Shown here piece after piece: positions 26,540-39,898 of a DNA stretch of 44,120 nucleotides (its first letter is position 1; every line of letters begins with the position of its first letter). The position numbers were made by a program, and so were the translations under genes. Under the pieces are notes generated by a model that was given only the letters and a program-made list of their open reading frames with translations, was not told the DNA's origin and searched no databases. This stretch comes from a virus: the IMG/VR virus record IMGVR_UViG_3300020439_000014, positions 1-44,120 of that record. One strand, written 5' to 3'.

Positions 26540-27054
26540 TATTCATATACTCGTCTAAGATTTGCTGTTAAAGACTGGTTTTCATTTTGAGTTACAGTAA
26601 CAGAGTAGTCATCGCACACTACTTTAATATCCTCTTGGTGAATTGTAATTGTAAAATTCTCTGGAGTTTTTACATCCAAAAACGCAGATATTAGTTCAAT
26701 TTCTTCCCAAGGTCTATTATTAAATTTTATATTGTAAGTCTCATCCTTTGTATTTAAGCCATCTTTTATACGTTGCTCGTATCCATCGCCAAAATTTGCT
26801 ATCAAAACTCTTTGAGTAGACTTTTTTCCAATTCCACGATCAAAAGTTATTTCTTTTTCCGCAGTTACACTTGTAAGACCTTTATCATCATAAAGTTCGT
26901 TTACTATATATGCAGCAGTATCTTCCACTGTATTATTTACAGGAGAGGTGTCTGGAAATCTTCGCGCAATTTCTTTGTAAAAATCTCTTTGAAAAGTATT
27001 TGTCCCTGTCCCTAAACCTGGCTTTATAATTTGAAAACTAAACTTTCTAGCCAT
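26539..27054 (-). CDS. M: Minor tail protein, gpM-like
   Basis: This 171-aa protein has the central motif QRVLIANFGDGYEQRIKDGLN at about 81-101, which is the signature of the lambda gpM / phage minor tail family (xxFGDGYEQRxxDGxN). It also has RPWEEIELISAFLD in the C-terminal half, matching the family's 'W..l...e...l..Fl' region. An N-terminal extension of about 75 residues (SFQIIKPGLGTGTN, FYKEIARRFPD) precedes the conserved domain. In lambda, gpM joins the distal end of the tail to the tip. The gene is coupled on both sides through one-base TAATG overlaps with the tape measure and gpL genes. Confidence 0.9.
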   Translation of the reverse strand: MARKFSFQIIKPGLGTGTNTFQRDFYKEIARRFPDTSPVNNTVEDTAAYIVNELYDDKGLTSVTAEKEITFDRGIGKKSTQRVLIANFGDGYEQRIKDGLNTKDETYNIKFNNRPWEEIELISAFLDVKTPENFTITIHQEDIKVVCDDYSVTVTQNENQSLTANLRRVYE

Positions 27055-30000
27055 TATCCTGCTCCATATGGGCTAAGCATTCCACCCGCTCTTCTTTGAT
27101 TTGCTAGTTCGTTTTGTACAGCAATTGAAATTGCTTTGCCCAACATCTCTGACTCGCCTTCTTTCATTTCTACACTTTGATTCGCATTTCCATTGCCATC
27201 AACTGAAACATTTACAGTTACATTATTATTTTGTTGGTTCATGCCCGAGCCTTTTAGCTCTACAGGTATTTTATTGTTTCCGGGCAAAGGAACAACTGCT
27301 TCATTTCCATGAAGTACCGCAGGGTAGCCTGACATTGGGCCATTGGCAATACCGCCACGATTATACCCTGAAATTTTATTTCCTCCTTGTCCCATGATAC
27401 CGCCATGTTTAAAGCCTAGCATGCCCAATCCCATGGAAAGGAAGGGCCCGACTCCGGGAATAAAATTAGCAAGCATACTAAGAATGCCGCCACCTCCCAT
27501 GCCGCCGCCGCCCATGAAACTGCCGAAAATACTTCCTAGACTTCCAAGGAATCCACCACCACCTTTTGCTCCAAAGATACTTGTAAGCTGAGTTAGGAAG
27601 CCCCCGCCTCCGGCGCCCCCAGAAACACCGAGTATATCTCCAAAGGAACCTAGGAAGTTGCCCATCATTCCTCCCTTTCCTCCGCCCATAAGCATTCCGA
27701 GAGGGCCACCAGCTTGTCCACCCTGTGCAAGTGCTCTTTGATTTTCTACTTCGGCATAGTAAACGAGTTCGGCAATATTATTCGCCATATCTTCTGTGAC
27801 TTGTCCCAGAGGATGGTTTCCTGTATCATAGTCTTTATCTTTTGGCCCAAATAGCTTTTTGTGTAAAGGAGTTCCAGGGTCTAAAAGTCCTCCAAGACCT
27901 CCGCCCATGCCGCCAGTAAAGCCTCCTAATATTTTTGAGAAAATACCTCCGAGACCACCACCAGCACCTTCGCCAGTAAATAGTCCAGTAACTTTACTAA
28001 TTATATTCGAGAAGAATCCGCCACCTTCTCCACCACTGCTAAAAAGACCAGTAACTTTACTAATTATGTTAGAGAAGAAACCGCCTGTACCGCCTTCTCC
28101 GCCACTAAATATTGAACCAAAGAAACCTTTAATTTTCTCAAAAATACCGCCAAGGCCTCCGCCTTCTCCACCGCCAAATATTTTGCCAAAAAAGTCTTTT
28201 GCTCCTTGAACTACACCAGAGAAGTTTGGAAGTAATTTACCAATTCCTTGAATTACATTCGAAAGAAATCCTCCTTCTCCGAATATTTTTCCGAAAAAGT
28301 TTTTAAACCCGTCTATTAAGTCAGCAAAGAAGTCTTTGAATCCCTTAAAGAACCCAGGAAACGGTCCTGCAGGACCTAAAAGATTTTTGAAGAAGTTACC
28401 CGTCTTAGTAAAGAAACTGGAAATTGGGCCATCACTACTAAACAGCTTTCCAAAGAATCTTTTTACGCCATCAAAAGCCCCACAAAATAATCCTCCGCCT
28501 TCACCCTTAAAAAGATCAGTAAAAAAGCCAGTAAACTTACTAAATAATCCAGTAAATATTCCACCCTCTCCTCCTGAGAAAAGCCCTGTAAAGATATTTT
28601 TAATTCCTGTAAATAAACCTTTAAATACTCCTCCGCCGCTACCTTTTCCAGAGAAAATATTTTTAAAGAAGCCTCCTACAGTTGAGAATATTCCTGCAAT
28701 TGGTCCGGCTTCAGAAAATAATCCTTTAACTTTATCTATAAACCCGGGATTTTCTGGTAAAAGTTCCGGTAATTGTATATCTTTCAAAAGCTCCTCAGGC
28801 CTCATGCTATCTTCTAAAGCAGTATCCAACTCTTTTGCTACTGTATCTACTACTTCTTGTCCGGCTTTTTTACCATAATTCATTACATCTTGTGGGATTT
28901 CTTTAAGAAAATCGGGTTTTTCTGGCTCCGCCATAACATTAGTTAAAACATCTTTATTTAGTGCATCTTGGATGCCAGTTTTAACCTCTTCAGCGCCGCC
29001 ACCAAGAGCCTCTTCCACTGTTTTTCCTGCTTTTTCTATTGTTGAAGAATCTACTACATTTTCTTCGCAGCAGCATACCTTGACTCCTTCAGCCAATGCG
29101 TCTCGAATTTGATTACCAAGACTTACTCCAGCAATAGCTATTTGAGCCCCCACTGCATTAGCGTGAGCGGTTCCTGAGGTTGTAATAGCAGTGGACATTT
29201 GAGTAGAGCCAGTTGCGTGCGCCGATGCTATTTTCTTTGCGGGGCTTGTTCCTGCTAATCCTAGTGCTCTGAAAATTTCATCAACAAGTACTTCTGAAGC
29301 TTTTCTTTGTATTGCTTTTAAGAAATTTCTAGCAATATCTTTCAATTTTTCATCAAGATCCATGGTTTTGTCTGACAAAGAGTCAAACATTGCATCTACT
29401 GCATCTACCATCGAATTCTTGAATGATTTTGCTGCTGTATGTAATATATCAGTTATTGGATTGAGCCTGGCAACTGTTCTTTGAGCGCTTCTTTCCATAC
29501 GCTTCAAATCGTTTTGTGCGGCAGCAGCAGTTTCGTCATTGATTGTAATAGCTGCTGCTTCGGCTCGAGCGTAACTTTGTGCAAGAGCCCCATTTTCTCC
29601 GTACATGTCTATTAGGCCATCGACGTCACCGGCTAAAGTGCCCGTATCATCTCCGTATACTCCGCCCTTTATTTGCTTCTGTAAAAGTTTTAACTCTAAA
29701 AGAGTTTGCTTTCTCTTATTATCTAAGAGATCATACTCCATAGTTATTTGACTTTGTTTTAGTTTTCTTTCTTCTTCTATCTGTACAGTTCTAGCTGCTA
29801 CTTCTTGTTGAACTAACTTTAATTTTTCTTCTGCAAGGAATCGATCCTTTTCAAAGAAAGGATTTCTAAGAGCATTTTCTTCTGCAATGTCTTCAACTTG
29901 AGCATTTGCTTGTTGAATTTTTAAATTTAAAAGTTGTTTTCTTTGAGAGGCTTCTTTCCCTAAAGCAGTATTCAGTTGATTTTGAAGATTTAAAACTCTT

Positions 30001-32720
30001 CCATCTAATTTAACACTTCTAATTTGCTCTTCTATATCTAATATTTGAGTTTTAAAGCCCAAGTCTTTTTGTGCTACTGTGAGCTTTGCATTTTCTACAG
30101 TTAACTCATTTTGTAAAGCAAATATGCGTGCATCCGCCGCAGCCGCATCAGGACTGCCTTCTGCCAACCCTTGTCGAAGACCTTGTTCTGTTGTTATTTT
30201 TCTTTGTATTTGTGCAACTGTATTTTCTTGCTGTGCAATGGCGGTCAAAAGCGTTGATCTTTTTGAATCAAAACTATTTCTTATTGCCGCATTTTTTACT
30301 TGTTCTGCTGCTAAATCTTTCTCAGCCTTTAAAAGTCTATTTGTTTCTGTTACGGCTGTTGCTACAAAATCAATGAATGCTTGTCTATTCATTTTTGTTA
30401 CAGCAAAAGTATTATCAAATTGAACATTTAGTACGGCTATGGCATCCGATGCACCTTTAAAGCCCTCTGCAGTTATAGCACCTTCGGCATCCTCTAAACT
30501 TTTTGTAACGGCTTTTAGAGCAGAATCCATAGCAAAAATATCTCCATCCCTTATGGTATCTGCTAAGGCTTCATTTGCGGAGGTAAAATTCTTTATACCA
30601 TCATCTGCTTTTCTAGTCTTTTTTCCTACTTCGTCAAAAAATTTAATAACATCTGCTCTATTTGTTATATCTAATTCTGCTAAGCCAGGAATAACTCCTC
30701 CTAAATCTTTTTGGAAATCTGCTAAAACACTTGAAAGACTGCCAAAGACTTCTTCTGCTCTTGCATTTGCGCCAAAACCATCTAATGCTGCTACTTCTTC
30801 AATTTGCCTTGCAACATTAGAAACTTCTGCAGTATTTATAAAGTTTCTAATTGCAGAATTGGATCTTGCCATTGAATCAACAATGTCTTGTGCAGCTTGT
30901 TCTGTATTTTCAGCCATAAGTTTCATTCTGGTTGCTTCTTCGGATTGTAAACCCGCTACTAAACCAGAAAAATCTTTGTCTAATTGTTGAACTGCCATTG
31001 CCGCGTCATCAGCAGCATCACGAGCATTTTCAAATTCTTTTATCATTTGTCCAGGAGCTCTAATTATTTCTCGTAAATCAGAGTCAGCGTATGCTCCTGA
31101 AAGATTACTTAAATCAATTCCTGCGATTGCTTGACTAATAGAATTTATCATGAAATCGATACCTTCAAGAGTCAAAAGTATTAAGCTATCTATTCCTTTT
31201 ACTACTTCTAAGGCTATCTGTATAAATAAATATGCAATACCCAATCTTTTAAAAACACTGGCAAATCCACTAAGTTTTTTGGATAAACTTGATATGCCAG
31301 TGCCTGCAGTTTTTAAAAATTTTGCCATTTGCTTATCACTAAAAGCTATGGCTTTTCTGAACCTAAGATTGGCTTTTGTCCATTGTTTAGTAAAGAAGTT
31401 GGCACTCTTTTTAGTTCGATCATCAATTTGAGCCAAAGCTTTTCTCATGTCCTGTACGGCTTCAGTAGACATATTTTCAAAAGCACCGCTCATTACTCTA
31501 CCAGTTTTCTTTGAATTTTCTTCTGCTAGTTTTAAGAATCTTTTTAGCTGACCAAGCTCTTTTTTATTTAAACTATCAAATCCGTCGCCTTTGACTTTTT
31601 CTAGGAGTTTGCTTTGTGCTCCTCCTTTCAGTGCTTGCTTTGCTTGCTTTTCAAAAGTTTTCTTTGCACTTTTACGGACTTTTTCTTGAGCATCGTCAGC
31701 TAATTCTAGCTGCTTATTATAATCTTTAATATCTTTTTCTGCTTTATCAAAAGCTGCAGATGCTGCTTCTCCTACTGAATCTAATTTATCCGCCAAAAAT
31801 GTTGTGGCTCCTGCACCTTTCAGTACGTTAAATGCAAAAATACCCAACAAACCGACAGCTACACCAATGCTATTACTAACTACATTTGCAATAACTGTAA
31901 ATATAGGTAGAAACGCTTCGGTAATAGTTTTAATTAAGTCTTCAAAAGCTTTTGATAAAGTAATAAATGGATTGGCCGTAGCTTCTTGATTACCAAAAAT
32001 TTGATCCAACTGCCTTTGAGTTTCGACTAAAACGGCCTGGCTTCGTTGAGTTTCAGTAAGTGCGTCTGCTTGTAATCCAAGAGCATCGGCATAGCGCTTT
32101 GTAGCAGTTTCTAATCTAAGAGTAATTCCTAATTCATCCAAAAGTTCTGGTTCTGCTTTCGAAACACCTCGTACTAATCTATCAAAAGCATCTGCAAAGT
32201 CTCGGCCCAAGGCATTAGAAGCACGCAAAGCGCCTTCTGCTAGTTTATTTAATTGACTTGGTGAAAAACCTTTTGCAGTACCAATTGCAGCAGCTTGAGC
32301 AGCTTCTCTAAACCCTAACATACCTTGAGAAGTTTCTCGAAGTCGATGAGTAACAGAAGCAAGAGCATTACCAGTGCTAGCTGCAAAACGTAATTGAGCT
32401 TGTTCGAGTTGTTGTACTTGCGCAGCATTTTTCATAAAGTTAAATGCAGCACTTAATGCAAATAAGTTTGCAGCAAGAGAAGCATAGACACCTACAAGGC
32501 CGCCCATGCCTTGAGACATTTTAGAGAAGTTTTTACTGGCATTTGAAGAAGCGTTTGCTGCTCCTTTTATATTACGATCAAGAGTTCGAGCAGACTTACT
32601 ACTTTGATCAGCAGCCTGGTCTACATTATCTAATTCTTCTCGTAATTTTTTACTGGAGAGAGTTACCTTCTCCATTTTGCCATTGACTTCTACATCAATA
32701 GTGACCTTTTTCTTAGCCAT
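27054..32720 (-). CDS. Tape measure protein
   Basis: This 1888-aa protein follows the tail chaperone, as in other siphoviruses. It has coiled-coil stretches (about 1-70, 300-400 and 800-1100) and hydrophobic segments (about 72-96, GGLVGVYASLAANLFALSAA; around 270-300, PIFTVIANVVSNSIGVAVGL; around 500). A CCC triplet lies in the Ser/Ala-rich centre. A long Phe/Gly repeat region (about 1350-1620) has units such as FFGKIFGGGEGGG and FFSNIISKVTGLFSGG. Near the C-terminus GYPAVLHGNEAVVPLP is a hallmark of tape measure proteins. At the usual 0.15 nm per residue it predicts a tail of roughly 280 nm. The protein sets tail length and is ejected ahead of the DNA. The start overlaps the frameshift product's stop as TAATG. 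Confidence 0.93.
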   Translation of the reverse strand: MAKKKVTIDVEVNGKMEKVTLSSKKLREELDNVDQAADQSSKSARTLDRNIKGAANASSNASKNFSKMSQGMGGLVGVYASLAANLFALSAAFNFMKNAAQVQQLEQAQLRFAASTGNALASVTHRLRETSQGMLGFREAAQAAAIGTAKGFSPSQLNKLAEGALRASNALGRDFADAFDRLVRGVSKAEPELLDELGITLRLETATKRYADALGLQADALTETQRSQAVLVETQRQLDQIFGNQEATANPFITLSKAFEDLIKTITEAFLPIFTVIANVVSNSIGVAVGLLGIFAFNVLKGAGATTFLADKLDSVGEAASAAFDKAEKDIKDYNKQLELADDAQEKVRKSAKKTFEKQAKQALKGGAQSKLLEKVKGDGFDSLNKKELGQLKRFLKLAEENSKKTGRVMSGAFENMSTEAVQDMRKALAQIDDRTKKSANFFTKQWTKANLRFRKAIAFSDKQMAKFLKTAGTGISSLSKKLSGFASVFKRLGIAYLFIQIALEVVKGIDSLILLTLEGIDFMINSISQAIAGIDLSNLSGAYADSDLREIIRAPGQMIKEFENARDAADDAAMAVQQLDKDFSGLVAGLQSEEATRMKLMAENTEQAAQDIVDSMARSNSAIRNFINTAEVSNVARQIEEVAALDGFGANARAEEVFGSLSSVLADFQKDLGGVIPGLAELDITNRADVIKFFDEVGKKTRKADDGIKNFTSANEALADTIRDGDIFAMDSALKAVTKSLEDAEGAITAEGFKGASDAIAVLNVQFDNTFAVTKMNRQAFIDFVATAVTETNRLLKAEKDLAAEQVKNAAIRNSFDSKRSTLLTAIAQQENTVAQIQRKITTEQGLRQGLAEGSPDAAAADARIFALQNELTVENAKLTVAQKDLGFKTQILDIEEQIRSVKLDGRVLNLQNQLNTALGKEASQRKQLLNLKIQQANAQVEDIAEENALRNPFFEKDRFLAEEKLKLVQQEVAARTVQIEEERKLKQSQITMEYDLLDNKRKQTLLELKLLQKQIKGGVYGDDTGTLAGDVDGLIDMYGENGALAQSYARAEAAAITINDETAAAAQNDLKRMERSAQRTVARLNPITDILHTAAKSFKNSMVDAVDAMFDSLSDKTMDLDEKLKDIARNFLKAIQRKASEVLVDEIFRALGLAGTSPAKKIASAHATGSTQMSTAITTSGTAHANAVGAQIAIAGVSLGNQIRDALAEGVKVCCCEENVVDSSTIEKAGKTVEEALGGGAEEVKTGIQDALNKDVLTNVMAEPEKPDFLKEIPQDVMNYGKKAGQEVVDTVAKELDTALEDSMRPEELLKDIQLPELLPENPGFIDKVKGLFSEAGPIAGIFSTVGGFFKNIFSGKGSGGGVFKGLFTGIKNIFTGLFSGGEGGIFTGLFSKFTGFFTDLFKGEGGGLFCGAFDGVKRFFGKLFSSDGPISSFFTKTGNFFKNLLGPAGPFPGFFKGFKDFFADLIDGFKNFFGKIFGEGGFLSNVIQGIGKLLPNFSGVVQGAKDFFGKIFGGGEGGGLGGIFEKIKGFFGSIFSGGEGGTGGFFSNIISKVTGLFSSGGEGGGFFSNIISKVTGLFTGEGAGGGLGGIFSKILGGFTGGMGGGLGGLLDPGTPLHKKLFGPKDKDYDTGNHPLGQVTEDMANNIAELVYYAEVENQRALAQGGQAGGPLGMLMGGGKGGMMGNFLGSFGDILGVSGGAGGGGFLTQLTSIFGAKGGGGFLGSLGSIFGSFMGGGGMGGGGILSMLANFIPGVGPFLSMGLGMLGFKHGGIMGQGGNKISGYNRGGIANGPMSGYPAVLHGNEAVVPLPGNNKIPVELKGSGMNQQNNNVTVNVSVDGNGNANQSVEMKEGESEMLGKAISIAVQNELANQRRAGGMLSPYGAG
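27860..28660 (-). repeat. Phe/Gly-rich imperfect repeats in tape measure gene
   Basis: About 270 residues of the tape measure alternate between short amphipathic Phe-rich helices (GLFSKFTGFFTDLF, GFKNFFGKIFG, KIKGFFGSIFS) and Gly/Glu linkers (GGEGG). Two DNA copies encoding FFSNIISKVTGLF lie next to each other, about 65 bases apart ('agtaactttactaattat' recurs near 27989 and 28050). The units look internally duplicated. Confidence 0.75.
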
Positions 32721-33558
32721 TAGCCTCTAACATTATGGGTGTACTTTTTTCCACCGCTTTTAGCTTTTCGCTCTTCTGTCTTTCTTTTCATTTCTTGCTG
32801 TTCGTATTTAGATTTTACAATCATATTTTCATACATTTTCATAATGTAGAATACAGTCTTACGATCTTCTATTTCATACAACTCGAAAAAATATTCTATG
32901 CCGTGCCAGTGCTTCCCCATGTAGGTACCACTCATTCCTTCCCAGTAGTCCGGCAATAAACTAAACATAAAAAATGCCACTTGAACCTCTTCCGGAAAAT
33001 CAGAAGGGTCGAGCGGCATTTTGGAGGGGTCGGGTTCTTGACCTAGCTGTTCACAGACTAATAAATATTTATCAACATCTATATTAGAGTCTGCTTCACG
33101 GACGTATCGTTCGAGTAGCTGCTCTACTCGTTCGAGTTGTTCCCGGTAAAATTTTCAAGATCACCTACCGAATCTGTTACCCACGTATCAAATACATTTG
33201 AATTTTTCATTAACAGTTCGGCATTTTCCTTAGTATAAGGAAGTTCGTCGTCTGGTTCTAGGTCTCCTACATCTACCAAAAGAAGCTCTTCTAGGTAACG
33301 ATATTTTAAGCCCGACCAGCCTTTAATTACTGCTTTGCAGTATTCAACAATAAACTTATCTTCGTCTAATGTTTCTTCTGGCTGTCGAGTTTTCTTATCG
33401 AACTTTGTAGTCACACATCGCTTACGAAGTTTTAGAAGTTCTTCTCGTCCGAGATAACATAGAGAGACAGTCATTCCGGTAAAGCCAGGAAAATCAATTT
33501 CAACAGTTTTACTTGCAGTCATAAGACTCGCGAGAGAAACGGGGGGTGTATCTGTCAT
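32720..33558 (-). CDS. Tail assembly chaperone, -1 frameshift fusion product
   Basis: This is the long form of the tail chaperone, corresponding to lambda gpGT. Ribosomes that slip back one base on AAATTTT (33154-33148) continue from Phe137 into the -1 frame. That frame then reads YREQLERVEQLLERYVREAD, VDKYLLVCEQLGQEPDPSKM and on to the C-terminus at 32720. The fused protein would be about 279 aa. The -1 frame is open from just before the slip site, and an in-frame TGA lies at 33157-33155, so slippage must occur between that TGA and the zero-frame TAG at 33126-33124. The part before the first ATG (33019) reads as normal protein, so a separate gene starting at 33019 is unlikely. The T-like extension would bind the tape measure or tube subunit. 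Confidence 0.88.
33124..33558 (-). CDS. Tail assembly chaperone, short form
   Basis: This 144-aa protein starts at an ATG after AAGGA with 8 bases of spacing, about 31 bases downstream of the predicted transcription start. It contains EIDFPGFTGMTVSLCYLGRE, a basic stretch (LRKRCVTTKFDKKTRQ) and KAVIKGWSGLKYRYLEELL, which is the style of phage tail assembly chaperones placed between the tube and tape measure genes. The zero-frame product stops at the TAG at 33126-33124, shortly after the slippery site. In lambda the G:GT ratio matters for tail assembly. There is no signal peptide or membrane segment. The ten or so residues after the slip site are not conserved-looking. Confidence 0.87.
   Translation of the reverse strand: MTDTPPVSLASLMTASKTVEIDFPGFTGMTVSLCYLGREELLKLRKRCVTTKFDKKTRQPEETLDEDKFIVEYCKAVIKGWSGLKYRYLEELLLVDVGDLEPDDELPYTKENAELLMKNSNVFDTWVTDSVGDLENFTGNNSNE
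33148..33154 (-). promoter_or_regulatory. -1 ribosomal frameshift slippery heptamer AAATTTT
   Basis: In the zero frame of the chaperone the codons are GAA AAT TTT ACC. The heptamer A-AAT-TTT fits X-XXY-YYZ exactly, so both tRNAs can re-pair as AAA-TTT one base back. The site lies between the only permissive limits, a -1-frame TGA just upstream and the zero-frame TAG 22 bases downstream. I see no strong pseudoknot in the next 40 bases, although GC pairing around 33126-33145 is possible. Confidence 0.85.
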
Positions 33559-33595
33559 TTTTTAAATCCTTGTGAATGAAATTTTGTATTTTGTA

Positions 33596-33688: not shown

Positions 33689-35377
33689 TTAGAGAGCGAC
33701 TCCAAAGTACTCCAGGTTGACTTCATTTGCAACGTTAAATTCGTCGGTGTACGAAGCGAAACTCGTTTCAACAGAAATAACGTCTTCAATAGAGTGAGCA
33801 GGAACGTTAACGTGTACTTTCGGCATGTTTACATTCAAGCGAGGAGTATTAGCTACTGAACCACCCACTTGGAAAGTTACATCAAAGTCGTTTACAACTT
33901 CGTTCAAGCCTGTTCGAGTCATGTCATTAAACAGATCTACTGAAGTTCCCTGAGCAGCATCATCAAATGTCAAGTAACAAGTAAAGCTACCAGAAGCCGT
34001 TCGGCCGCCGGTTACGTGCTCAATTGGAACGTTTACAGTACCAAGTTCCTCTGGTACGAGATATGAAATATTATTAGAGATAGTAATATTTCCACCCGTA
34101 AGAGTAAGGCTGTAAGAGCTCTTTGTAGAAGAGCCTGTACCTGTGATAACACCATTCGGGAACGTGGTTCCTACGCCACTTCCAGTCGTGCTAATAAGAA
34201 GCTGAGTAAGACGATTTCGAATAAATGCTTTAGTAGAAGTAGTACCAGTATCAATTGCATCTACTGCTGAAACACCTGTGGTGCCCGCAGTGATTGCAGC
34301 TTCTGTAGCTGAATAGATACTAAACTTCATGTCATTATCTGTTTCTAGATAAATATGGCCTGCTGTACCAGTGCCAGAACGAGCAGCAGTACCTGTACTT
34401 ACTTTGCTATCTGAAGTCAGGTCGCGAACCTGAGCAGCAAAACCAGACCAGTTAATGGTTGCAATACCATCTACTTCAAAGTCAATAGAGGCTTCGTTAA
34501 AAGCTGCGGCTTCCAACTTGTAAACCATTGGGTTAGCAGTGCTAGTTTCCATTACAAAGTAAAGGTTACAAGTAGCAAGAGTTGATCGGTTTGACTGACC
34601 AAAATTGATAGCCGCGCCATTGTTGCCTGATACAGGATTATTCACAACTACCGCGGGACCATGTGTGGAGTTTGGATCTGGTTGAGAATTTCTATAAAAA
34701 GATGCACCAGTTGTAATCAACTTTGCGCCAACTACTGTTAGAGTGATTGGGCCGCCTGTTCCGCCAAAAATAGTAGCAGGAATATTGATAATGTCACCAT
34801 TTGAGAATCCAGTACCTCCGGAATCAATTTTAGTAACTGTTGCAGTTGTACCGCTTGCAATTGTTACTTCAATTTCCCAGCCTACTGCCGCTGAGCCGGC
34901 ACCGCCAGTTGTACCACCAGAACCTCCATAGAGAAGTCCACTAGTAGCGTCATTAATAGTATAAACACCGTTTGTAGCTCCTGATACAGTGCCTCCAACA
35001 GTTAAACAAGTAAGATCTGCGGGATCAAGAGCACCACTTGCAGTGGATGCAGTATACTTATCAGCACCTGCCATTACTGCCCAAAGAGCCTCTTCTACTG
35101 CGTGATGTTCATTGGGGCTTGCTCCATCTTGGTAAGGTCGTACATACGTACTAAAAGACCACTCCGCCGGAGCAAGAGAGTCAGTAAATACTCGGTTACC
35201 TCGTCGACTCAATCCATCGGCTCCTTGCATTTCTGAAAGAGAGATTTCCGATTGGTTGGTAGACTGTGAGAAACTGAAACCATCAAGAACAGGAATTTCC
35301 CAGACTGCCCCAGAGCTGCCCGGATCAAATTCGATGTATAGTTTCGAGTCTCTGCTAAAATATAATTGTTCTGCCAT
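33689..35377 (-). CDS. Major tail tube protein with inserted domain
   Basis: This 562-aa protein starts at an ATG 8 bases after AGGAG. Its first residues (EQLYFSRDSKLYIEFDPGSS, PVLDGFSFSQSTNQSEISLSE, RVFTDSLAPAEWSFSTYVRP) match the start of phage tail tube subunits. A Gly/Thr-rich insert lies at about 120-215 with 'VTKIDSGGTGFSNGDIINIP', a 'sGxGfxxGDxIxI' beta module often added to virion proteins. The tube fold resumes later (ASIDFEVDGIATINWSG, VPIEHVTGGRTASGSFTCYL). It is much longer than the roughly 250 aa of lambda gpV. Codon choice is less AT-rich than in neighbours, and a strong terminator follows, as expected for an abundant protein. It forms the tail tube; the insert may decorate its surface. 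Confidence 0.88.
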   Translation of the reverse strand: MAEQLYFSRDSKLYIEFDPGSSGAVWEIPVLDGFSFSQSTNQSEISLSEMQGADGLSRRGNRVFTDSLAPAEWSFSTYVRPYQDGASPNEHHAVEEALWAVMAGADKYTASTASGALDPADLTCLTVGGTVSGATNGVYTINDATSGLLYGGSGGTTGGAGSAAVGWEIEVTIASGTTATVTKIDSGGTGFSNGDIINIPATIFGGTGGPITLTVVGAKLITTGASFYRNSQPDPNSTHGPAVVVNNPVSGNNGAAINFGQSNRSTLATCNLYFVMETSTANPMVYKLEAAAFNEASIDFEVDGIATINWSGFAAQVRDLTSDSKVSTGTAARSGTGTAGHIYLETDNDMKFSIYSATEAAITAGTTGVSAVDAIDTGTTSTKAFIRNRLTQLLISTTGSGVGTTFPNGVITGTGSSTKSSYSLTLTGGNITISNNISYLVPEELGTVNVPIEHVTGGRTASGSFTCYLTFDDAAQGTSVDLFNDMTRTGLNEVVNDFDVTFQVGGSVANTPRLNVNMPKVHVNVPAHSIEDVISVETSFASYTDEFNVANEVNLEYFGVAL

Positions 35378-37885: not shown

Positions 37886-39898
37886 TTAAGCCAGAGCTGT
37901 GGTGTATCGAATCTCACGAGCAGTAAGACCTACTGCTGCGGCACCGTCGAAGAGACGCTCGAAGCCAAGAGTTTGGCTAGCTACGAGAGCACTACGCTGG
38001 TTTGCGACTTGATACTCGGTCTCGATGTTAACGCCGCGCATTCGTGGAATCACGAAGTTACGTACGTTAAAGAGACACGCACAAACATTGTCGCCAGACT
38101 TGTCATTTGACAATCCGCCCATATCCGTTACAATAACAGGAATTGAGAAGATAGTACCCATGGTACCAGTCAGCTTAATTGCAAGCTCAGAACCAACTTC
38201 GGTAATATCGTGGAAGTCAGTATCCTGAAGAAGATCATTATAGGCAGAGTATGAACATACGAGCGCGAGGTCCGCAGGGTTCAGGCCATACTTCTTCATG
38301 TCAGCGCGAGCGACAAGAATATCAGAGCCCTTCAGTCGGTCACCACTAGATGCAACGTTAGCAATGTTAAGAGGAGTTGTGCTGCCTACAGTAGCGGCAT
38401 CACGAACGCCGTTAGCGCCTGCACCAGAACCACCAACACCTTGGATTACCATGTCTTCGATTGCACGAGCGTGCGCACGAACCATACCCTCACGAAGCAT
38501 CGGGAGAATAGTAATCAAAGTATTCTCATCGGTCTCATTGTTCACATAAGTGGTAGAAGTCATACGACCTACAGTGAGAACCTTTGAGCCATCAAGTTGG
38601 AAAGCGCCGGCATTTGCACGCGCAGCACCGTTCAGGCTTTCTTCCAGGTCAGGTGCTTGGTTAGCAGTACCTGTAGGAGAGCCGCTACCAAATGTAGCTT
38701 TCTGAGAATCTGGCATCAAGGGCAGTACAGTTTGAACTGTATTCACCTGAATTTCACGGAACAAGTTAGCAGTCTTAAGCTCAAGCTGAAGCTCGCGCTC
38801 AAACTGAGTATTGACTTCCGTATCCAGAGTAATGTTTACGCCTGAAGTAGGAGTAATGTTTACACCGAGCTTCTCAAGAACGCCAGAGTCCCAGCCCTTT
38901 CGAGAAATCTCGTTGAAAATCTTAGCATCAAGAATCTTAGATCCGTCGCGCTCAGAATTAAAAGAGTCTGCACCACGATCAGAAAAGCTCATCTTGCTGT
39001 TAGTGATAGCTTGAATTTCTGCAGCCTTCTCTTCGAGTTCGGCCTTATACTTTTCAATAATTTCTTGAGTTTCTGCATCTTTAGCAGTAAACTCTTTACG
39101 TAGATCTTCTACAAGACGCTCAGTACCAGACTCGATACCAGTGCGAATTGAGGTCTCTACCTTCTCTTGCTGCTCTGCAGCAGCTTTTTGAGCTTCTGCT
39201 TCCTCAGCAGCTTTTTGCTCTTCTGCTTCTTGAACAGCTTGAGCTTCTGCTTGAGCAGCCGCCTTTTCTTCGGCCTGACGAATTGCAATTTTAGCAGCAG
39301 TTTCCTCCGCTACTTTCTTGGCAAAAGCGTCTAGGTCGATTTCGGGAGTTTGTGTTTCTTCCGACATATCTGTCTCCATTGAAGAGGAATCTTCCTCGCT
39401 TTTAAAAGTTTTCTTGAAGTCTTCGTAAGCCTCTTTAGACTCGAATGACTTCGCTAGAGAAAAAGTAGCTGCTTGATTGCAAGGTACCGTTACAACAGAT
39501 ACTTCAAACAACTCAGCGTCCTTAATCATTAGTCCGTCGGTTTCCTCAAGGTAATCAGCATCCTTGACTTTGAAACCAACAGAAAACGCTCCAAGGACAC
39601 CGTCTTTGATTAAATCTGCACATTCGGCATGTTTACTAATTTTCGCCTCCATGTGCAAGCCATCCGCTGTCGGAGTAACTTTTGTTGCTCGTCCAATCGG
39701 CTTTGAATAATCATGATTAAATAAAATTATGGGATTTTTTTCGAAATTACCTAGACCTCCCTTTGTCCATGCTTCGGCCATAATGCTGTCGCCCGCACGG
39801 TCAAAATCCTTAGTACTAGCCATCCCTCGAACCATTACAGACCCATCTTCCTGAGGTTCGCTTTTAAACGTAGAATTTAGATTAAATAATTTATCCAT
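37886..39898 (-). CDS. Prohead protease-scaffold-major capsid fusion
   Basis: This 670-aa ORF holds three functions that are separate in most HK97-like phages. Residues about 1-150 are an HK97-type prohead protease, with catalytic His62 in ILFNHDYSKPIG, Ser106 in LGAFSVGF and the ELFEVSVVTVPCNQAA motif. Residues about 190-310 are a long Ala/Glu/Lys/Gln coiled coil (AAQAEAQAVQEAEEQ style), scaffold-like. From about 325 the HK97 capsid fold follows (ISRKGWDSGVLEKLGV ... RDAATVGSTTPLNIANVA ... FLERLFDGAAAV-type end). I infer a self-cleaving polyprotein: the protease cuts off itself and the scaffold as the head matures. Codon use is less AT-rich than in neighbours, as for an abundant protein. Confidence 0.9.
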   Translation of the reverse strand: MDKLFNLNSTFKSEPQEDGSVMVRGMASTKDFDRAGDSIMAEAWTKGGLGNFEKNPIILFNHDYSKPIGRATKVTPTADGLHMEAKISKHAECADLIKDGVLGAFSVGFKVKDADYLEETDGLMIKDAELFEVSVVTVPCNQAATFSLAKSFESKEAYEDFKKTFKSEEDSSSMETDMSEETQTPEIDLDAFAKKVAEETAAKIAIRQAEEKAAAQAEAQAVQEAEEQKAAEEAEAQKAAAEQQEKVETSIRTGIESGTERLVEDLRKEFTAKDAETQEIIEKYKAELEEKAAEIQAITNSKMSFSDRGADSFNSERDGSKILDAKIFNEISRKGWDSGVLEKLGVNITPTSGVNITLDTEVNTQFERELQLELKTANLFREIQVNTVQTVLPLMPDSQKATFGSGSPTGTANQAPDLEESLNGAARANAGAFQLDGSKVLTVGRMTSTTYVNNETDENTLITILPMLREGMVRAHARAIEDMVIQGVGGSGAGANGVRDAATVGSTTPLNIANVASSGDRLKGSDILVARADMKKYGLNPADLALVCSYSAYNDLLQDTDFHDITEVGSELAIKLTGTMGTIFSIPVIVTDMGGLSNDKSGDNVCACLFNVRNFVIPRMRGVNIETEYQVANQRSALVASQTLGFERLFDGAAAVGLTAREIRYTTALA
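39365..39377 (-). promoter_or_regulatory. Candidate internal ribosome binding site in capsid ORF
   Basis: In the capsid ORF the minus strand reads ATGGAGACAGATATG. GGAG lies 6 bases before the second ATG (Met178, 39367-39365). This is ideal spacing, between the protease and scaffold parts. A product starting here would be scaffold plus capsid without protease, comparable in principle to the nested scaffold start in lambda C/Nu3. Unproven. Confidence 0.4.

Follow-up and report, generated by a model that had tools for sequence, protein, structure and literature searches.

A probable programmed -1 frameshift in the tail assembly chaperone genes of an uncultivated virus, and a candidate +1 counterpart in T5-like phages

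We analysed a 44,120-base uncultivated virus record, IMGVR_UViG_3300020439_000014, from a marine bacterial virus; it is referred to below as the window. Two overlapping reading frames lie between the genes for the major tail protein and the tape measure protein, a placement that matches the synteny of gpG/gpGT-type tail assembly chaperones, and the ATG of the tape measure gene overlaps the stop of the second frame. The coordinates of all features are given in Table 1. In profile searches the first ORF matches phrog_313 ('Tail assembly chaperone') and the second reading matches phrog_3914 ('tail assembly chaperone'). The phrog_313 profile covers both halves of the T5 pair, with positions 12-141 corresponding to T5.143 and positions 170-258 to T5.142; some members of the family must therefore be annotated as fusions, and Salmonella phage Shivani is one such. 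Genes further downstream match minor tail and central fibre families, which are profiles of lambda-type tail genes, in an order that we take to be that of lambda M, L, K, I and J. No chaperone family was found for the window proteins in Pfam or NCBIfam, nor among PDB sequences when the G alignment served as the profile. Elsewhere in the window, a 670-aa ORF (37886-39898, minus strand) has head maturation protease matches in residues 10-281 and none in the remainder; it is perhaps a protease-capsid fusion.

Table 1. Features of the chaperone locus and its neighbours, in window coordinates
Feature	Position	Strand	Basis or remark
Major tail (tube) protein gene, upstream neighbour	33689..35377	-	phrog_3575, E 1.8e-38
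AAGGA, plausible Shine-Dalgarno sequence of the chaperone ORF	33567..33571	-	sequence
Zero-frame ORF, short form (gpG-like tail assembly chaperone), 144 aa	33124..33558	-	phrog_313, E 5.6e-13
Shine-Dalgarno-like AGGTGAT, 6 nt 5' of P-site codon AAT; role doubtful	33160..33166	-	inferred
TGA closing the -1 frame, directly 5' of the heptamer	33155..33157	-	frame reading
Slippery heptamer A_AAT_TTT	33148..33154	-	frame phase; kept in relatives
-1-frame part of the predicted fusion (T domain), 142 aa, Tyr (TAC) to stop 32722-32720	32720..33148	-	phrog_3914, E 1e-18; dN/dS in relatives
Candidate stimulatory hairpin	33107..33135	-	-15.3 kcal/mol; contains the zero-frame stop
Zero-frame ORF stop TAG	33126-33124	-	frame reading
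ATG-started 99-aa ORF within the T domain	33019-32720	-	ORF list
Tape measure protein gene, 1888 aa, downstream neighbour	27054..32720	-	phrog_3779, E 1.2e-43; phrog_58, E 9.9e-18

AlphaFold2 models of the two parts have pLDDT values of 79.7 (G part) and 84.4 (T part). Among predicted viral structures, the G model is nearest to T5-like chaperones (E 2e-13 to 5e-10 for the top four). The top two rows of a VIA-align comparison of the G model with the PDB are YqbN (3klu, Z 5.6) and the HK97 tail assembly chaperone (2ob9, Z 4.8), both weak. Foldseek searches of the PDB returned no match with E < 1 for the G model and, for the T model, seven rows with none at E < 4 and no match of note. The window proteins resemble known tail assembly chaperones by sequence profile, and weakly by fold.

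The initial annotation had proposed that AAATTTT is the slip site of a -1 frameshift joining these two frames. A_AAT_TTT indeed has the X_XXY_YYZ phase in the zero frame and is the only in-phase heptamer of the 144-aa gene; the single other heptamer, CCCCCCG, does not have this phase. The TGA just upstream (33157-33155) blocks the -1 frame, which then runs open from 33154 through 144 codons to the stop at 32722-32720, with 142 codons downstream of the site as first read. The recomputed lengths are 144 aa for the short form and 137 + 142 = 279 aa for the predicted fusion, in agreement with the earlier estimates. Nine window genes contain 46 in-frame heptamers (three of them AAATTTT) per 7661 codon positions, which gives a chance of about 5% of finding one among the nine in-frame positions of the overlap. 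The lone window site is therefore only mildly surprising and no more than suggestive, and the case rests on conservation.

Relatives were collected by protein scans. The first-ORF scan yielded 80 loci, all of which carry GAA_AAT_TTT followed by a second ORF in the -1 frame (80/80; three are cut by the contig end). A wider set, built from three further first-ORF protein scans and nine phage records, brought the number of classified loci to 232, with the second ORF in the -1 frame in 196, in the +1 frame in 35, and cut in one. Some loci share one contig; the distinct regions, including the window, number 164 (131 with a -1 and 33 with a +1 relation). Record counts are not independent, as the relatives are linked by descent. 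Rows left out were L174 (contig end), L081 (the window itself), AhSzw-1 L324 (chaperone frame not intact), and L171 and L172, the latter being the PG07 genome and the former another T5-like isolate with a 100% identical protein. The loci of the second-ORF scan (L082-L161), mostly on the same contigs, were kept out of the main classification and checked apart. A scan with the D239 protein gave no relative, and none of the 884 phage records matched by tblastn reaches 60% identity to the window protein.

All 197 complete -1 records, including the window, have a canonical heptamer: A_AAT_TTT in 182, and G_GGA_AAC one codon upstream in 15. No close relative has lost the open -1 frame; the T5-like homologue has its second ORF in +1. 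The second-ORF scan agrees, with AAATTTT at the start of the homologous frame in 79 of 80 loci. The 80th, L096 (2940-3060), reads GAT_TTT_TTT_AC, so that U_UUU_UUU stands at the same place as a natural slip-site variant. The same site and frame arrangement appear in two MAG contigs, one (L328) from a MAG labelled Euryarchaeota and the other (L327) from one labelled Gammaproteobacteria; these are probably binned virus contigs, which leaves the host unsettled. A sequencing error or an indel in this contig could split a single gene so that it looked like two frames, and two frames in one contig are all that speaks for such a break. The same frame relation recurs, however, in every one of the 197 complete -1 records, which come from many samples, and it holds while the zero-frame tail after the site varies between 15, 18 and 24 nt. 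This refutes the explanation, to which we give practically no weight.

The choice of codons at the site was assessed in 69 A-type clusters with less than 85% nucleotide identity to each other. AAT and TTT are used in 69/69 clusters each, compared with frequencies of 0.56 (AAT) and 0.74 (TTT) elsewhere in the same genes. The codon before AAT is GAA in 53 clusters, CAA in 8, TCA in 4, GCA in 3 and ACA in 1, and so ends in A in 69/69 although it encodes Glu, Gln, Ser, Thr or Ala. At the neighbouring Leu codon, three back, all six Leu codons are in use across the clusters. Fixed codon choice across five amino acids is as expected from selection on the heptamer rather than on the protein.

The second frame is also constrained. 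We calculated dN/dS over the 28 codons that follow the zero-frame stop, using only sequences without ATG, GTG or TTG in that stretch or in the open frame upstream (61/131 eligible) and only pairs with at least 72% identity, the comparison of all pairs being saturated (pS > 0.75). Over 150 pairs from 45 sequences, the -1 frame gives 0.169 and the remaining two frames 1.05 and 2.26. The second frame is under purifying selection ahead of any start codon, and the earlier view that the -1 frame is protein-like before its first ATG is borne out by relatives that have no start codon there.

These data bear on whether the locus is instead two separate genes, with the second ORF starting alone at the ATG at 33019 (99 aa) through coupling or an internal start and with no fusion made. 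Such an ATG is present, the first ATG of the second frame lies at codon 42-43 in 86/131 distinct relatives (elsewhere in the rest), and many T5-like records annotate the two ORFs apart. An internal start cannot, however, explain the conserved stretch, because that stretch precedes the ATG: of the three readings of the 28 start-free codons past the zero-frame stop, the -1 reading alone shows purifying selection. Start codons are also missing from the open -1 frame 5' of the shift in 122/131. Nor does the first ATG of ORF2 appear equipped for initiation; a Shine-Dalgarno match of at least five bases is absent in 130/131 distinct relatives (one has five bases), and the window sequence has no such match at 33019, whereas about half (64/130) have one at the approximate ORF1 start. 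Separate genes would further leave the invariant heptamer unexplained. We regard them as very unlikely in place of a fusion, although an extra internally started product may exist besides it. A Shine-Dalgarno-like AGGTGA(T) located 6-7 nt 5' of the P-site codon is the best match in 54/131 distinct -1 sequences (36 + 18). We do not claim it as a stimulator; it is absent in other relatives and overlaps conserved VGDL codons.

RNA structure was examined in the 70 nt 3' of the site. The 69 A-type clusters have a mean z of -2.08 against shuffles (34 below -2) and of -2.38 against synonymous-codon shuffles (45/69 below -2). Synonymous-shuffle controls at four places further downstream gave -1.24, -0.96, -0.58 and 0.05, and are thus mostly also negative. 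A 9-bp helix, whose 5' arm includes the zero-frame stop codon, begins 8 nt after the heptamer in the set of 99 distinct sequences with equal spacing. At least six of the nine pairs are formed in 80/99 sequences and fewer than six in 19/99. Overall, 79.2% of helix cells are paired compared with 27-38% when the helix is slid, a control that favours the helix to some degree since the helix was chosen from the same sequences. Both sides have changed in 91 helix cells, against a shuffled mean of 36.8 (0/500 shuffles), and the covariation score is 0.291 compared with 0.154 (0/500 shuffles). For two of the five pair measures, the number of pairs with a double change and the number of further pair types, the observed counts are no higher than in shuffles (422/500 and 140/500). 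RNAalifold returned no consensus structure for all 99 sequences because outlying members lack the helix. The G_GGA_AAC relatives have little 3' structure (mean z -0.66, 6 clusters). A covarying hairpin 3' of the site is well supported for the family.

The window belongs to a subgroup with a different stem, CCCGAATA..TATTCGGG, which appears in this or a closely similar form in several members. In the window itself the stem reads UCG-AA-CGAGUAG..CUACUCG-AA-CGA, with an outer UCG..CGA helix and a 7-bp CGAGUAG/CUACUCG helix (33130-33112). Its stability is modest, with z of -1.17 over 61 nt and -1.57 against synonymous shuffles, and two members of the subgroup fold poorly (L217, -7.1 kcal/mol; L244, -3.5 kcal/mol). 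The main helix starts 17 nt after the heptamer and the outer helix 12 nt after it, or about 4 nt if a weak GGG/UCC helix is counted. A spacing rule of 4-10 nt 3' of the heptamer is given in the available text of Sharma et al. 2014 (PMC4066793); the 8 nt of the relatives falls inside this range and the 12-17 nt of the window outside it. A stimulatory hairpin in the window is likely.

Slippage by RNA polymerase on AAAATTTT, giving mixed mRNAs in place of ribosomal slippage, would draw on the A4T4 stretch that the window does contain. The runs are short, however; only three A remain in the TCA, ACA and GCA variants, and where G_GGA_AAC is the heptamer such a run is missing altogether. What is conserved is a codon-phased heptamer, with an RNA hairpin 8 nt behind it in most relatives. 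Given the variants that lack an A4T4 run, transcriptional slippage is unlikely to a degree that leaves it only a slight chance.

The best explanation of the locus, and one we hold with great confidence on comparative grounds, is a programmed -1 frameshift that would produce a gpG/gpGT-like pair. The gpG/gpGT strategy with an AAATTTT slip site, as originally suggested, accords with heptamer conservation, selection on the second frame, the hairpin in most relatives and the gene order. Normal reading would give the 144-aa gpG-like short chaperone, and a minority of passes the 279-aa gpGT-like fusion. The shift is most simply read as a tandem slip, from AAU_UUU to AAA_UUU: the tRNAs on AAU (P site) and UUU (A site) would each move back by one base, to pair with AAA and UUU, and decoding would resume in the -1 frame at UAC (Tyr). 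Ribosomes would most likely be slowed by the stem-loop just 3' of the site, which holds the zero-frame stop. If lambda is a guide, the short form would coat the tape measure protein and the fusion would recruit the tail tube subunit through its T part, so that the slip rate would set the ratio of the two products. The H_HH.U_UU.Y class is described as among the most efficient -1 heptamers in E. coli in the accessible part of PMC4066793. A_AA.U_UU.U belongs to this class, an assignment by class that is based on E. coli; within the same part of that paper, it is not among the 21 patterns used for a genome search.

The +1 group consists of T5-like phages. TTT_CGA or TTT_CGT occupies the Phe codon aligned with that of the window in all 35 +1 records. 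Nine further T5-like records agree with UUU_CGN (T5 is in both sets), as does Shivani. Records with UUU_CGN and a +1 second ORF are L322:1498-2332 (T5, AY543070), L162-L170, L316-L323 and L325. In a set of 12 phages that represent different genera or types, all 12 have TTT (background 0.53) and all 12 have CGN after it. The window has a -1 relation and UUU_ACC at this codon, and so lacks the T5-like +1 signature. In the T5-like phages the +1 frame ahead of its ATG has a dN/dS of 0.115 compared with 1.74 and 22 (259 pairs, 24 sequences), indicating purifying selection. We examined 20 named phage records, of which 19 are intact, and the relation is +1 in 19/19. In Aeromonas phage AhSzw-1 (L324) the chaperone frame is not intact at the corresponding position, and a large part of the record carries no annotated genes; we read this as sequence errors or decay. 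Four phages named for Corynebacterium, Campylobacter and Listeria (H206, H300, H111 and H80) carry an enterobacterial T5-like chaperone, and mislabelled hosts or contamination are likely. In Salmonella phage SP_Thor (MW411578, H303) the region that matches the chaperone carries DNA methylase annotations, which look shifted or wrong.

As excerpted, the review PMC5009743 names UUU_Ynn as a sequence on which +1 shifts occur especially readily in bacteria and gives UCC_UUU_CGU as the influenza PA-X site, a sequence found letter for letter in My1 and DU_PP_V. The available text of a short genome paper (PMC6256483) states that the Sugarland chaperone, as in T5, has no predicted frameshift signal. 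Among open-access papers, to which the search was confined and outside which most T5 papers lie, we found none that reports a +1 site in T5; an open-access search with AAATTTT and related terms likewise gave, among the matches listed, no title on this site. The Shivani record (KP143763, L326:18208-19039) has a joined chaperone CDS whose 277 aa fits a -2 shift, while a +1 shift at UUU_CGU would give 276 aa. A -2 shift in T5-like phages, which the Shivani record would suggest, is less likely: a Phe tRNA displaced two bases backwards would meet CUU, ACU, CCU, AUU or GGU, depending on the genus, whereas UUU followed by C is invariant in the 12 types. Judged from reading frames and codon conservation, a +1 programmed frameshift in T5-like phages is probable.

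In a protein tree of 82 rows, the +1 group falls on one side of one branch (95/93, in a tree of 136 columns with long branches and bootstrap values that are not settled), so that one change of direction suffices. Among the -1 rows, one 100/100 clade holds G_GGA_AAC and A_AAT_TTT members intermingled, which indicates that heptamers have been exchanged there. With the T5-like second ORF in +1 at the aligned Phe codon, the direction of the frameshift appears to have switched inside one gene family. We consider it likely, with less assurance than for the -1 shift, that the chaperone pair changed direction at the same codon: the window clade would shift -1 on A_AAU_UUU, G_GGA_AAC or U_UUU_UUU, mostly with a hairpin, and T5 and the other Demerecviridae examined would shift +1 on UUU_CGN, with no clear structure, to make a T5.143-T5.142 fusion.

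Several consequences follow from these readings. The frameshift explains a 99-aa ORF of the window that would otherwise be an orphan, and it makes products of 144 and 279 aa the correct annotation for a large group of uncultivated viruses, marine and other. The family amounts to an experiment of nature in which the heptamer has been swapped with its phase kept, and in which direction differs between two sister branches at an aligned Phe codon. It thus makes testable whether tail assembly needs the chaperone ratio rather than a particular mechanism. If the switch is true, selection would act on having two products and not on how the ribosome shifts. The +1 reading could also account for the seeming exception of T5, whose chaperone has no predicted signal according to the accessible portion of PMC6256483.

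The window is a further, very probable case of the known gpG/gpGT-type frameshift, and what lifts it above routine is the change of direction within one alignable family and the +1 candidate in T5. The tail assembly chaperone frameshift of phage lambda gpG/gpGT was reportedly described by Xu, Hendrix and Duda in 2004. As in the window, the lambda pair lies between the tail tube and tape measure genes, with a -1 slip late in the first ORF that gives a short form and a long fusion, and the downstream tail genes of the window match lambda-type profiles. Lambda shifts on G_GGA_AAG (PMC5009743, as excerpted), whereas the window heptamer is A_AAU_UUU and its relatives also use G_GGA_AAC and U_UUU_UUU. 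In further contrast to lambda, the window proteins are of the T5-like families phrog_313 and phrog_3914, and most relatives of the window have a covarying hairpin 8 nt 3' of the site. The T5.143/T5.142 pair of the Demerecviridae resembles that of the window in having a homologous G part (28-36% identity to L179 in alignment A1), a homologous T part (phrog_3914) and the same place in the tail gene order. It differs in that its second ORF is in +1 and not -1, with UUU_CGN conserved at the aligned Phe codon, and in having little 3' structure (mean z -0.33, 7 clusters) compared with the window clade. Influenza A PA-X and the bacterial UUU_Ynn +1 sites, as described in the available text of PMC5009743, resemble the candidate T5-like UUU_CGN and not the window. 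The -2 chaperone frameshifts of phages 9g and Mu serve the same gene function with another shift size (PMC4276943 and PMC5009743, both in part), whereas the window needs -1. Reviews, to the extent of the accessible text of PMC5009743, record that tailed phages variously use -1, -2 or +1 shifts for the tail chaperone gene.
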